A DNA stretch of 8,198 nucleotides, from contig JAJRTK010000261.1 of the NCBI GenBank assembly GCA_024278345.1, positions 1-8,198 of the forward strand. Direction: 5' to 3'. The DNA is from a bacterium (GTDB taxonomy: Bacteria > CSSED10-310 > JAJRTK01). The position numbers and the translations under genes are program-made. Below, in pieces: positions 1 through 8,198 of this stretch. The notes under the pieces were generated by a model. It saw only the letters and a list, made by a program, of their open reading frames with translations, searched no databases and was not told the DNA's origin. How positions within the stretch are numbered: position 1 is the first letter of the stretch; each line of letters opens with the position of its first letter.

Positions 1-111
1 CCGGTTGACAACATCACCGCTGGGGCAGGCCTCCTTCCCGGCTCCGTGCAGCCCGGAGGGCGCTACACCGGCAAGATGCCGGTGCCACCGTTTCGGCGAA
101 GAAAATTGTAA
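1..111 (+). CDS. Possible 3' end of a gene entering from the left (partial)
   Basis: Frame 1 is open from the first base to a TAA at 109-111 and encodes 36 residues. It begins PVDNITAGAGLLPGSVQPGG and ends in a basic tail (FRRRKL). The first 20 residues look protein-like, with no low-complexity bias. The last part reads through the palindrome at 66-84, so the C terminus may be a repeat-derived extension, or the frame may be open by chance. I recognise no family. The start lies outside the window. Confidence 0.3.
   Translation, partial: PVDNITAGAGLLPGSVQPGGRYTGKMPVPPFRRRKL
66..84. repeat. REP-like palindrome
   Basis: Arms CACCGGC (66-72) and GCCGGTG (78-84) pair perfectly around the loop AAGAT, and CCACC follows at 85-89. 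The core GGCAAGATGCC followed by a CCAC-like tail resembles, from memory, a dispersed palindrome seen between genes in many unrelated bacterial genomes. Only one copy is present here, so the repeat status comes from that resemblance. There is no T-run after it, so it is not a convincing intrinsic terminator. Confidence 0.5.
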
Positions 112-4384: not shown

Positions 4385-5704
4385 CTAGCCCTCGAAGGCA
4401 CGGTCGGTGACGTCCAGGCAGCGGTCAATGATGGCGAAACCTTCCAGGAGCTCTTCTTCGGTAATGCAGAGCGGTGGGTTGCACATGAAACTCGACCACC
4501 GGACAAAGGTAAACAAGTGGTTGTCCCGGAATGCCTTGGCCAGAGCCGCCATGGCAGGGCTCGACCCATTGTAGGGAGCCGACGCCTCGCCGGAACTGTT
4601 CTTCTGGATGTCGATCATCCCGAAAAGACCGATGCAGCGACCCTCCTTCACCGATGGATGTTTCTCTGTCAGGCGATCCATCTCCCGCCGCATCACCTCT
4701 TCCAGCCGCGCCGCGTTCTCTACCAGTTTCTCTTCTCGGAGAACTTCGATGACCGCCTCCGCCGTCGCCAGCGCCAACGCGTGGGAGTTGTAGGTCAAAC
4801 CGCCCCAAAAGACGTTGGAGTCGAAATGTGCTGCTATTTTGTCGCAAAGCCCCATGCAGCCCAACGGAATGTACGAGCTCGTGAGCCCCTTGGCCATGGT
4901 GAGGATGTCCGGCACGATGCCGCCATGCTCGAAGGCGAACATCTTGCCCGTCCTCCCGAACCCGCACATCACCTCGTCGCAGATGAGCAGAATGCCGTGC
5001 CGGTCCAGAAGCTCCCGCAGCCCCCGCAAATACCCCTCGGGAGGCGCCAGAATCCCGTTCGTCCCCGTCACCGTCTCGATGATCATCGCCGCGATGGTCT
5101 CCGGCCCCTCGTACTGGATCACCTCTTCCAGATAGACCAGGTTGTTCCGCGTTTTTTCTTCGTCCGATTCCCCGAACGAATAGTCGTACGGCCTGGGATC
5201 CAGCACCCGGATGATCCCCGGCGTCCCCGGCTCGTTGGCCCACCGCCTGGGATCCCCCGTGAGCTGCATGCAAAGGTTCGTCCCGCCGTGATAGGAGCGA
5301 TACCGCGATAGAATCTTGGAACGTCCCGTATAGAGCCGCGCCGCACGAATCGCGTTCTCGTTTGCCTCCGCACCGCCCAGGGTGAAGAAAAATCGGTTGA
5401 TGGGGTCGGGAACAATCTCCGAAAGCAGCTTGCCTACCCGCGCCCGCACCGGCGTCGCCGACCCGGGAAAGACATAGATGAGCTCGTCGATCTGCCGCTT
5501 CATCGCCTCGATCACCCGGGGATGACCATGGCCGATATTCACCGACATGAGCTGACTATTGAAATCCAGAATCCGCTCGCCATCGGGCGTGTAGAGGTAG
5601 ACACCTTCGGCAGTCTCGATGGGGAGCGGTGACACGGCTTCCCCCTTCGCCCACGTGTACATCGTATACTGCTTGCAAAGGCCGATCATCTCTTGCGTGT
5701 TCAT
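4385..5704 (-). CDS. Class III omega-aminotransferase (beta-alanine or taurine type)
   Basis: This PLP-dependent fold-type I transaminase has 439 aa, the normal length for class III. It should move an amino group from an omega-amino acid or amine to pyruvate or 2-oxoglutarate, giving a semialdehyde. Key sites are the phosphate-binding TLGGAEANENAIRAAR (108-123), ring-stacking SYHGG (137-141), IIETVTGTNG (208-217), and the Asp243 in ICDEVMCGFGRTG that binds the pyridine nitrogen. Lys272 in TMAKGLTSSYIPLG forms the Schiff base. The C-terminal FVRWSSFMCNPPLCITEEEL (400-419) is also typical. ATG 5704 is chosen because AAGGAG lies exactly 5 bases upstream; an in-frame start at 5755 would add 17 residues with no such site. 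It lies downstream of mmsA on the same strand, which favours beta-alanine or beta-aminoisobutyrate as substrate. Taurine, GABA or other omega-amines remain possible. The antiporter gene follows after 15 bases. Confidence 0.9.
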   Translation of the reverse strand: MNTQEMIGLCKQYTMYTWAKGEAVSPLPIETAEGVYLYTPDGERILDFNSQLMSVNIGHGHPRVIEAMKRQIDELIYVFPGSATPVRARVGKLLSEIVPDPINRFFFTLGGAEANENAIRAARLYTGRSKILSRYRSYHGGTNLCMQLTGDPRRWANEPGTPGIIRVLDPRPYDYSFGESDEEKTRNNLVYLEEVIQYEGPETIAAMIIETVTGTNGILAPPEGYLRGLRELLDRHGILLICDEVMCGFGRTGKMFAFEHGGIVPDILTMAKGLTSSYIPLGCMGLCDKIAAHFDSNVFWGGLTYNSHALALATAEAVIEVLREEKLVENAARLEEVMRREMDRLTEKHPSVKEGRCIGLFGMIDIQKNSSGEASAPYNGSSPAMAALAKAFRDNHLFTFVRWSSFMCNPPLCITEEELLEGFAIIDRCLDVTDRAFEG

Positions 5705-5775
5705 CTCGTCTCCTTGGTTCCCAAAAAGCCCGCGAGGTGCGTCAGTTTTCCCCATGGCGGTCTGCTTCGCAAGGG

Positions 5776-5850: not shown

Positions 5851-5988
5851 CACGTTCGCCGCCTGCCCAGGCCCCCGACCCCAATGCCTCATACCACCCC
5901 TCAAGGTTCTGGGTGGCGGAGGCACCACCGATGACCGGGTCCGGTTCTGGGTTCAGGGCGTGGGAATCAGGTTTTCCGGCCTGCTTCT
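5851..5988. other. Non-coding stretch between repeat B and the MITE-like structure
   Basis: This stretch holds no gene I can support. CCACCC (5894-5899) can pair with GGGTGG (5911-5916), and GGTTCTGGGT occurs twice as a direct repeat (5905-5914 and 5943-5952). It looks like repeat-rich intergenic DNA continuous with its neighbours. Confidence 0.45.
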
Positions 5989-5998
5989 CACCCTTCGA

Positions 5999-6019
5999 GT
6001 ATCCACGCAAAGCGGGACA
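5999..6019 (+). repeat. Left 21-base inverted repeat
   Basis: It begins GTATCCACGC and ends GCGGGACA. Every base pairs with 6215-6235. If transcribed, the two arms would close a stem around the whole hairpin cluster. Confidence 0.85.
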
Positions 6020-6037
6020 CTCCGGGAATTGGGAATC

Positions 6038-6168
6038 GCGAGCGGCAGGGTGCGCCTCACTCCGCTCGCCGGGTAACGCTTCGCGTTACTCGGCGGTTGT
6101 CCGGGGACTCCGTCCCCGGTCCCCTGGCAGGGCTTCACCCTGCACCCACCAGGGAGCTCGCTCCCTGG
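6038..6168. repeat. Cluster of five different hairpins
   Basis: Five hairpins follow each other almost without gaps. H1 (6038-6069) has the outer stem GCGAGCG/CGCTCGC and an inner 5-base stem with one G-T pair. H2 (6068-6094) has 12-base arms, one G-T pair and loop TTC. H3 (6101-6119) pairs CCGGGGAC with GTCCCCGG, loop TCC. H4 (6127-6143) pairs GCAGGG with CCCTGC, loop CTTCA. H5 (6149-6168) pairs CCAGGGAG with CTCCCTGG, loop CTCG. The stems differ, but H2-H5 share a centre like CT(T/C)C(G/A), and H3-H5 are each followed by a short CCC-containing linker (GGTCCCC, GCACCCAC, GGACCCAC). A weak T-run (6176-6180) follows H5. Confidence 0.75.
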
Positions 6169-6214
6169 ACCCACGTTTTTGTAAGCTGCGCGGCTTCCCC
6201 TTTGTTTCCTTGCT

Positions 6215-6235
6215 TGTCCCGCTTTGCGTGGATAC
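6215..6235 (-). repeat. Right 21-base inverted repeat
   Basis: This is the exact reverse complement of 5999-6019. It lies 35 bases from the mmsA stop codon, on the 3' side of that gene's transcript. Confidence 0.85.
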
Positions 6236-6270
6236 CCCACCCTTCGCCATCCGCCCTTCGCTCCCTGCCT

Positions 6271-7788
6271 TCAGCTCATCCAGTTCTGATCCGTTTGTGG
6301 AGCCCATTTGCCAGTCACCTTCTTGGGCCGGGTCCAGAAACGGAAGCCGTCCATGCCGGTCATGTCCCCGTGCCCGAACTTGCTGTCGTTCCAGCCAGCG
6401 AACGAGAAGGGCTCCCGAGGCACCGGAACGCCGATGTTAACGCCTGTCATGCCCGCTTGGAACCGCGAGGTGGCATATTCGGCGACTCCTCCCGACGAGG
6501 TGAAAATCGACGCCGCGTTCCCGTACGGGCTCTTGTTTTCGAGAGCGATGGCCTCGTCCAGGGTGTCTACGTGAACGATAGTGAGCACCGGCCCAAAAAT
6601 CTCTTCGCATGCCGCCGGCATGTCGGGGGTCACCTGGTCGATGATCGTTGGACCCACCCAGAAACCGTCAGCGCCTTCCACGTTGGCATTTCGGCCATCG
6701 ACGATAACTTTGGCCCCCATCTTTTCGGCCTCGTCGATGTATCGGGTGATCCGTTCCACGCTCTCGGCGTTGATGATGCAACCCATCTCTTGCCCAAGGA
6801 CCATGTCGTTGGCCACTTCCACCATCTTGTCGATGATCCGCTGGACATCGCCTACGGCAATCATGACCGCCGCCGCCATGCAACGCTGGCCAGAGCAGCC
6901 GAAGGCCGAGGCCACGATATCCCGGGACGACATTTCGAGGTCCGCGTCCGGCACCACCACCAGGTGGTTCTTGGCGCCGCCAAGACAGAGCATCCGCTTC
7001 CCCTGCTTCGAGCCCTCGGCATAGACGATCCGGGCAACCCGCGTGGAACCCACAAATCCCACCGCCGCGATCTCCGGGTGTCCCACGATCCCCTCCACCG
7101 CCGGCCGGGCACCGTTCACCAGGTTCAAAACGCCGTCGGGAAGCCCAGCCTCCCGAAGCAGGAGCGCTAGCTTCATGGCGCTGTAAGGCACTTGTTCCGA
7201 TGGCTTCAGAACGAAGGTATTTCCGCCAAGGAGCGCCTGGGGAAGCATCCAGAGAGGAACCATGCTGGGAAAATTGAAGGGAGTGATCCCGGCGCAGACC
7301 CCCAGAGGCTCGTAGACCACGCGGCAGGTGACGCCGCGGCTCACCTCGAGGCGGCCGCCAGCTATCATGTTCTGGAGCGCCGTCCCCATTTCCACGCACT
7401 CGATTCCCTTGAGCACGCTCCCTTTGGCCTGGCCATAGACCTTGCCGTTTTCATGGGAAAGAAGCCATGCCAGCTCTTCCAGGTCCCGCTCCATGAGCTG
7501 CTTGAGCCGGAAGAGCACCTGCGCCCGTTCCTTCACCGGCGTGGATTTCCAGCCGGGAAAGGCCGACTTGGCCGCCTGGACGGCGGCGTTCACGTCTTCG
7601 ATGCCGGAGAGGACCACGCTGCCCATCTTCTTTCCGTGGCGCGGGTTCATGACCTCTAGGGCTCCGCCACTGGCCGCGTCCCGCCACTGGCCGGCGATCC
7701 AATTCTTGCAGTCGATGTAGGGAGTGAATTCGTAGCTCCTTGCCGGGAATTCCGGCGCTCCATCGTGGGCTGGGATGTGGGAAGTCAT
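6271..7788 (-). CDS. mmsA: CoA-acylating methylmalonate-/malonate-semialdehyde dehydrogenase
   Basis: MmsA oxidises methylmalonate semialdehyde to propionyl-CoA, or malonate semialdehyde to acetyl-CoA, using NAD+ and CoA and releasing CO2. It acts late in valine, beta-alanine and inositol breakdown, in the cytoplasm. The 505-aa protein is an aldehyde dehydrogenase of normal length for this subfamily. Markers are ITPFNFP with Asn172 (168-174), VLKPSEQVP (193-201), FVGSTRVA (245-252) and the catalytic Cys303 in FGCSGQRCMA (296-305). EEIFGP lies at 395-400 and GVPVPREPFSFAGW at 453-466. LGGAKNH (269-275) replaces the general-base glutamate motif of hydrolytic relatives (ELGGK), the hallmark of the CoA-dependent MMSDH group. 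ATG 7788 is chosen for GGAGGAG 5 bases upstream; the upstream in-frame extension of 25 residues has no such site. It is first of three minus-strand genes, and the next (aminotransferase) could supply its semialdehyde. Valine or inositol use cannot be excluded. Confidence 0.95.
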   Translation of the reverse strand: MTSHIPAHDGAPEFPARSYEFTPYIDCKNWIAGQWRDAASGGALEVMNPRHGKKMGSVVLSGIEDVNAAVQAAKSAFPGWKSTPVKERAQVLFRLKQLMERDLEELAWLLSHENGKVYGQAKGSVLKGIECVEMGTALQNMIAGGRLEVSRGVTCRVVYEPLGVCAGITPFNFPSMVPLWMLPQALLGGNTFVLKPSEQVPYSAMKLALLLREAGLPDGVLNLVNGARPAVEGIVGHPEIAAVGFVGSTRVARIVYAEGSKQGKRMLCLGGAKNHLVVVPDADLEMSSRDIVASAFGCSGQRCMAAAVMIAVGDVQRIIDKMVEVANDMVLGQEMGCIINAESVERITRYIDEAEKMGAKVIVDGRNANVEGADGFWVGPTIIDQVTPDMPAACEEIFGPVLTIVHVDTLDEAIALENKSPYGNAASIFTSSGGVAEYATSRFQAGMTGVNIGVPVPREPFSFAGWNDSKFGHGDMTGMDGFRFWTRPKKVTGKWAPQTDQNWMS

Positions 7789-8198
7789 ATCGGCTCCTCC
7801 GGACGCTGGTGCGTGGATGATTGTCCTTGATGCCAAGGCCACAAAGAGAGATGCAACATTCACAAAACCGAATCTTAACGCTTTCAGACATCGTCTGCCA
7901 GACTAGGCCACGAGGTAGCCCCTTCATCAACAAAAAAGGGTGGCAGTGGCCTCGGCCATCCCTTCGGCCACTCAGTCCAACGGCGGACCTTCCGAGACAT
8001 TCGTCATTCCCCGTTCCACGACCTCAATGGATTCGAGTACGGGACCTATCAAATTGTGGGCATCAACTTTAGCCGGGACACGTACCTGAACAAAAGAAGA
8101 CGCGAGCCGAGCAGAGCGAGGCGCGGCCCGGAGGTCGGAAACGCCCCGGTTTCGAAGTCGTGGCATGGAAACGGCCAGCGGGCTCCGGTTGACCGCCG
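7789..8198. other. Region without a supported gene at the right end
   Basis: The first ~110 bases are the leader and probable promoter of mmsA. Beyond that, one plus-strand frame stays open from 7879 to the window end and contains a protein-like stretch (FHDLNGFEYGTYQIVGINFS, roughly 8011-8070), but it has no ATG and no ribosome site. A minus-strand frame (stop at 7972) also stays open to the edge and encodes about 75 residues. I recognise neither, and they overlap each other. No repeat, RNA gene or terminator is clear. Confidence 0.5.
7872..7901 (-). promoter_or_regulatory. Candidate mmsA promoter with embedded operator palindrome
   Basis: On the minus strand, CTGGCA (complement of 7896-7901) and TAAGAT (complement of 7872-7877) are each 4/6 matches to -35 and -10 boxes, 18 bases apart and about 84 bases before the mmsA ATG. 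The perfect palindrome CAGAC-ATC-GTCTG (7885-7897) lies in the spacer and touches the -35. A dimeric repressor bound there would block RNA polymerase. No regulator gene is in the window. Confidence 0.35.

Follow-up and report, generated by a model that had tools for sequence, protein, structure and literature searches.

Genetic context and boundaries of the element

The window analysed here is a stretch of 8,198 nucleotides in which a short intergenic element lies 34 bp beyond the stop codon of mmsA. The genes on either side, named as in an earlier sequence-only reading, are mmsA (6271-7863) and, at 4385-5755, that of an aminotransferase; both are encoded on the minus strand. As that reading had described, an inverted pair of perfect 21-mers is present with 195 bases in between: GTATCCACGCAAAGCGGGACA occupies 5999-6019, and 6215-6235 holds its exact reverse complement. 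In 8 kb, a perfect 21-base inverted repeat with this spacing would not be expected to arise by chance. Comparison with other copies defined a terminal inverted repeat (TIR) of 23 bp (GGGTATCCACG... / GGGTATCCACGCAARGCGGGACA); the pair in the window comprises 21 perfect base pairs and one mismatch at base 2 (left GAG, right GGG).

The sequence CACCCTTCG is found on both sides (5989-5997 and 6238-6246), separated from the left 21-mer by 1 base and from the right one by 2. This had been taken for a 9-base duplication immediately abutting the inverted repeats. The repeat on both sides is real, whereas its length and its contact with the 21-mers required revision: the ninth base, a G common to both flanks, is coincidental and belongs to the left TIR, so that the element, 241 bp in length, occupies 5997-6237 and is flanked by the 8-bp duplication CACCCTTC. 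Only spurious ORFs overlap the element, and its length is below the limit of ~600 bp used for MITEs. Five hairpin-forming palindromes are present at 6038-6168, in agreement with the five hairpins previously proposed for the interior (Table 1).

Table 1. Parts of the element and their positions in the window.
Feature	Position	Strand	Basis
Target-site duplication (TSD), left copy, 8 bp CACCCTTC	5989-5996		Sequence; TSD statistics, 39 copies
Left TIR, 23 bp GAGTATCCACGCAAAGCGGGACA	5997-6019	+	Sequence; inverted-repeat and genome-wide TIR searches
Whole MITE, 241 bp, without transposase gene	5997-6237		Sequence, blastn, TSDs, aligned copies
Palindromic module 1, GCGAGCGG...CCGCTCGC	6038-6069		Sequence; folds
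Palindromic module 2, GTAACGCTTCGCGTTAC	6073-6089		Sequence; fold
Palindromic module 3, CCGGGGACTCCGTCCCCGG	6101-6119		Sequence; fold; recurrent unit
Palindromic module 4, GCAGGGCTTCACCCTGC	6127-6143		Sequence; fold
Palindromic module 5, CCAGGGAGCTCGCTCCCTGG, also outside the MITE family	6149-6168		Sequence; fold; recurrence count
Right TIR, 23 bp, GGGTATCCACGCAAAGCGGGACA on the minus strand	6215-6237	-	Sequence; inverted-repeat and TIR searches
Target-site duplication, right copy, 8 bp CACCCTTC	6238-6245		Sequence; TSD statistics

The element is dispersed in many copies with 8-bp target duplications

The source genome (G000; 6.06 Mb in 550 contigs, 87.9% complete) contains 491 matches to the TIR pattern at up to 3 mismatches, 241 forward and 250 reverse, and the reversed control pattern matched nowhere. 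From these TIR ends we estimate ~250 elements, corresponding to ~1% of the genome. A blastn search with the whole element returned at least 108 matches in the same genome (540 first-look candidates, 40 of them scored).

For 39 elements with paired TIRs both flanks could be read. A perfect duplication was present in 17, being exactly 8 bp long in 14 and 9 bp in three, and its sequence was different at each locus; perfect duplications of other lengths between 4 and 12 bp were absent from this set. Duplications matching in at least 7 of 8 positions were observed for 16 elements, compared with 0.36 expected from random pairing of flanks. The remaining 22 elements, which have no perfect duplication, can be explained as recombined, nested or decayed copies, or as wrongly paired ends. 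At one locus (L158) the element is nested in the TIR of another copy, so that an internal empty site is directly readable: when the flanks GAGTATCTACG and CAAGGCGGGACA are joined with one copy of the duplication they yield GAGTATCTACGCAAGGCGGGACA, which is an intact TIR apart from a single odd base.

The claim that the window holds a non-autonomous MITE of ~240 bp is thus upheld by copies at many unrelated loci, each with its own duplication, and by a single-copy empty site. Two of the checks suggested with that claim gave the predicted outcome, the genome-wide search through its 491 TIR ends and the empty site in one nested case. The TIR was found in none of 59 other genomes, just 7 of which share the phylum, and whole-element blastn in plasmids gave no match. 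As a type of element the MITE itself is ordinary; what is unusual is its number.

Interior palindromes behave as exchangeable modules

The element folds much better than shuffled sequences (z of -9.4 and -9.5 for the two strands), as expected of any cluster of palindromes. Alignment of 18 copies revealed a common core with hairpin modules lost, duplicated or replaced; L022 and L032 do not contain module 2, and L142 and L002 carry other palindromes where module 5 stands. Both sides were altered in a compensatory manner in 2 of the 47 predicted pairs, and the covariation term was +0.43. In about a third of the aligned copies the TIRs are asymmetric (for example GCAAGGCGGG versus CTAAGCCGGG), which breaks the outer stem of the putative RNA but is still compatible with two DNA-binding sites. 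Searching the window against Rfam at the gathering thresholds identified no family, and a search for a terminator-like site found none.

Module swapping together with almost no compensatory change means that a conserved RNA is not supported. The sequence-only reading had also envisaged an RNA in which a 21-bp stem closes the five hairpins; the swapped modules, the few compensatory pairs, the asymmetric TIRs and the missing Rfam match all speak against it, and the structural comparison of aligned copies that had been suggested for it came out negative on covariation and compensatory pairs.

Palindromes of the same sequences occur 59 times outside TIR-bounded units and 51 times inside, at a density that is ~5.6-fold higher inside. 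Several of those outside fall in a second repeat family with ends GGCCTCGGTCATNGG. We take the internal hairpins to be exchangeable passenger modules common to the MITE family and other repeats of this genome. Members of the second family were seen at L125, L212, L062, L010, L032 and L140, and a fragment lies near window positions 5918-5942. This family has hairpin modules of the same kind, CCAGGGCTTCCAGCCCTGG and CCAGGGAGC..GCTCCCTGG followed by ACCCACAT..TTTGTGCGCTGCGCG. Among the loci read, the palindrome CACCGGCAAGATGCCGGTG of window positions 66-84 has at least six occurrences that are not within MITEs.

Elements encoding DUF6399 proteins have the same kind of TIR

Elements of 1.7-2.5 kb that encode a DUF6399 protein have TIRs of the same kind together with 8-bp duplications, and matches between the TIR and an autonomous element were obtained for four of them (L117, L119, L175 and L176) as well as for remnants in the MITE's own genome. 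The strict TIR pattern had no match in viral contigs; a relaxed pattern located L117, where 1694 bp (6022-7715) lie between perfect 23-bp TIRs (GGCTACCCACTTAAAGCGGGACA) with the target duplication TTCATTTT on both sides. Its one ORF encodes 508 amino acids and matches the Pfam family of unknown function PF19936 (DUF6399; E = 5.6e-64). A DUF6399 search in further viral contigs returned nothing beyond L117. A DUF6399 element on the Crinalium plasmid NC_019737 (TIR GGCTACCAATCTAAGGCGGGACA, duplication CGTTTTCT) has the same layout as L117, and in Thiodictyon GGCCTTGATCAT repeats enclose the DUF6399 gene, with GTCCAACC present at either side.

An order-wide search detected DUF6399 in 13 of 151 genomes. 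One of these, the single-contig genome G141, contains six near-identical copies of 1688 bp with TIRs GGCTACCCACTTAAACCGGGACA / GGCTTCCAACTTAAGCCGGGACA. Clear 8-bp duplications flank L175 (GAGATATA) and L199 (CGTATATG), and two of the six copies are without duplication; a copy in another genome (G101) has the duplication GTTAATTC. In G141 two DUF6399 elements stand in tandem (L187/L192; contig C1, ~1,193,147-1,196,528), separated by the 6-bp spacer CTGTTT. AAATTTTC flanks this pair as one unit; together with the spacer, this is the arrangement that a dimer or circle junction would leave on insertion.

The TIRs of DUF6399 elements start with GGCTACC/GGGTATCC, and the ORF of ~500 amino acids runs into the right TIR in L117, L175 and L176. 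At the start of the ORF (L117:6084-6101, L175, L176 and L174) the sequence ATGAYTAAAAAAACAAAA is conserved, with the start codon not visible in L174, and the transposase frame is -1 relative to the ATG of ATGAYTAAAAAAACAAAA. The A7 run at the fourth codon makes a programmed frameshift or transcript slippage possible. Beyond the TIR, no sequence common to the MITE and the DUF6399 IS was seen. The annotation records read, including those of complete plasmids, label DUF6399 proteins as unknown or hypothetical. The open-licence literature contained neither a mention of DUF6399 nor these TIRs as printed transposon ends.

DUF6399 remnants adjoin the TIR in the genome of the MITE

Searches of G000 with PF19936 and with a DUF6399 profile identified decayed pieces only. 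No intact DUF6399 gene was found in this 87.9%-complete assembly, and a live source in this genome was therefore not seen. On contig C188 the 3' end of a DUF6399 gene, interrupted by a frame break, is directly followed by the right TIR TGTCCCGCCTTAAGTGAATACCC; 3' remnants on C390 and C507 lie beside the right TIR in the same way. On C36 the left TIR GGCCATTCACGTAAGGCGGGACA precedes what we read as the start of a DUF6399 gene (GKKSIRKIARQVGASKSSVH). As remnants adjoin both left and right TIRs, DUF6399 genes in the MITE's own genome have these same TIRs at their boundaries. At L126/L172 on C390, a TIR adjoining a decayed DUF6399 gene is broken by a two-copy tandem repeat, ACCATGAAAGTACATGGTTAAATCC....

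DUF6399 proteins resemble IS256/Mutator-like transposases

Residues D118, D173, D193, H196 and E423 are invariant in eight DUF6399 sequences. According to published work on prokaryotic Mutator-like transposases (PMC3942029, PMC7780238), their DDE triad is accompanied by C/D(2)H, located 11-19 residues downstream of the second D, and the E is preceded by a helical insert. In DUF6399 the distance from the second D to the corresponding D193-x-x-H196 is 20 residues and thus falls just beyond this range, and 250 residues separate the second D from the E. On the basis of these invariant residues, the DDE triad and D(2)H, the predicted DUF6399 catalytic core is placed near the IS256/Mutator-like DDE transposases.

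None of the NCBIfam transposase models reached its cut-off with the eight sequences. NF048019 (IS256_Zn_var) matched four of the eight, at best with 8.4e-6 and below its 150-bit cut-off, and we therefore call DUF6399 IS256-like rather than a member; the ISKra4 model NF033572 was not among the matches. Profile comparison of DUF6399 to three IS256-type proteins put the D1 and D2 motifs in register, in an alignment that was not significant (hhalign probability 1.2%). A search of solved structures with the same profile gave coiled-coil chance matches only, and a single-sequence AlphaFold2 model (mean pLDDT 39.8) was too poor for a fold search.

Explanations for the origin of the element

We interpret window positions 5997-6237 as a MITE with 23-bp TIRs and 8-bp duplications that was most likely moved in trans by a DUF6399-type IS transposase, with a probability of roughly 0.87. 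Mobilisation by another transposase, such as those of the ISKra4/ISMich2, ISL3 or IS1595 elements of the same genome, appears unlikely. Remnants of ISKra4, ISL3 and IS1595 are all present, and ISKra4/ISMich2, ISL3 and IS1595 elements also generate duplications of ~8 bp. However, at these loci no matching TIR is near the transposase gene. A single TIR-like match, at L087, is an old MITE copy ~450 bp beyond an ISL3 gene, and the ISL3 copy itself ends in a different sequence, whereas the DUF6399 remnants of this genome do adjoin the TIR. With remnants only, and with wrong TIRs or none, ISKra4, ISL3 and IS1595 were rejected as parents of the MITE.

Still less probable is the reading that the element serves as a structured RNA or a regulatory cassette, its structure being what is preserved, and that transposition did no more than disperse it. 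The strong folding relative to shuffles and the site just past the mmsA stop codon would suit such a cassette, but the copies differ by gain, loss or replacement of hairpin modules, compensatory changes are nearly absent, asymmetric TIRs break the outer stem, and neither an Rfam match nor a terminator-like site was found. That the pattern arises from faulty assembly or binning, or from low-complexity palindromes mimicking a transposon, we consider hardly credible. Many copies do lie at contig ends, where they accumulate because repeats break assemblies, yet complete copies with unrelated flanks and matching 8-bp duplications reside within contigs, and similar TIRs accompany complete DUF6399 elements in a one-contig genome and on complete plasmids.

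In the favoured scenario, that of a MITE mobilised by DUF6399, we infer that DUF6399 supplies catalysis, that it acts in trans and that transposition follows a copy-out route. The transposase of an IS with the same kind of TIR, predicted to consist of an N-terminal helix-turn-helix region and a DDE-type core in which D(2)H is present and a long stretch separates the second D from the E, would bind the TIR as DNA (GGGTATCCACGCAAGGCGGGACA) rather than as an RNA stem. The element would be cut or copied out, possibly via a circular or figure-eight intermediate analogous to that of IS256-like enzymes, and joined to staggered target DNA, which would produce the 8-bp duplication; in the window it would have landed between mmsA and the aminotransferase gene. 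Circle junction spacers of 6-10 bp have been reported for IS256-like elements (PMC3942029), and the 6-bp spacer of the G141 tandem pair fits this range.

Relation to known systems

The ISKra4/ISMich2 group (p-MULT 4), which has TIRs starting with GGG and 8-bp repeats, bears a likeness to the elements described here. A -1 frameshift occurs in some ISMich2 members (PMC3942029). In contrast, DUF6399 does not match NF033572, and the ISKra4 loci of this genome are without these TIRs. IS256/Mutator-like elements have in common with DUF6399 elements the 8-bp duplication, a TIR, the predicted D-D-E in which C/D(2)H follows the second D at ~20 residues, and a long, putatively helical stretch preceding the E, and the DUF6399 tandem copies with their 6-bp spacer recall circle junctions. 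The differences are that DUF6399 remains below every NCBIfam IS-family cut-off, that its TIR starts with GGCTACC/GGGTATCC and that the ORF of ~500 amino acids extends into the right TIR in the three elements named above.

The Geobacter uraniireducens MITE Chunjie is 235 bp long, with 38 full and 57 partial copies (reviewed in PMC10969869). Compared by description and not by sequence, it resembles the window MITE in size, in having a TIR and direct repeat, in its mostly intergenic location and in size variants among copies, but its copies are far fewer than the ~250 estimated here. REP/REPIN and ERIC-type repeats are likewise high-copy intergenic palindromes; here, in contrast, the units that contain the palindromes are bounded by TIRs, have target duplications and are linked to a DDE-type partner.

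The DUF6399 partner is the less ordinary part of the system, and a listing of this IS group may possibly already exist in unpublished or non-open form. The odds appear even that DUF6399 represents a further, unrecognised prokaryotic Mutator-like DDE lineage in cyanobacteria, gammaproteobacteria and the candidate phylum of the window, whose MITEs multiply to hundreds of copies and serve as platforms for the exchange of hairpin modules with a second repeat family. Through this association a Pfam family of unknown function gains a testable role, that of a transposase, and a likely source can be named for a MITE family of very high copy number. Proteins on plasmids and chromosomes annotated as 'DUF6399 domain-containing' or 'hypothetical' are candidates for re-annotation, and their MITEs can be located with the TIR motif. 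A MITE family with interchangeable palindromes as its interior may also offer a route by which hairpin repeats spread.

Related termini were also encountered in other genomes. In a Methylococcaceae MAG (G002, LinL3_bin-0689; L065-L074, L095-L116) the same TIR type bounds many short elements, down to ~70 bp, with different interiors; despite these many TIRs, no DUF6399 match at 1e-10 was obtained in this MAG. The Anaerolineales elements L067, L069, L070 and L072 have the same TIR, and their contigs end ~140 bp into the element, too early for a gene to be read. At L093 (G109:C33), about seven units of 193 bp are arranged head to tail, each ending in the TIR TGTCCCGCCTTAAGTRGGTAGCC.
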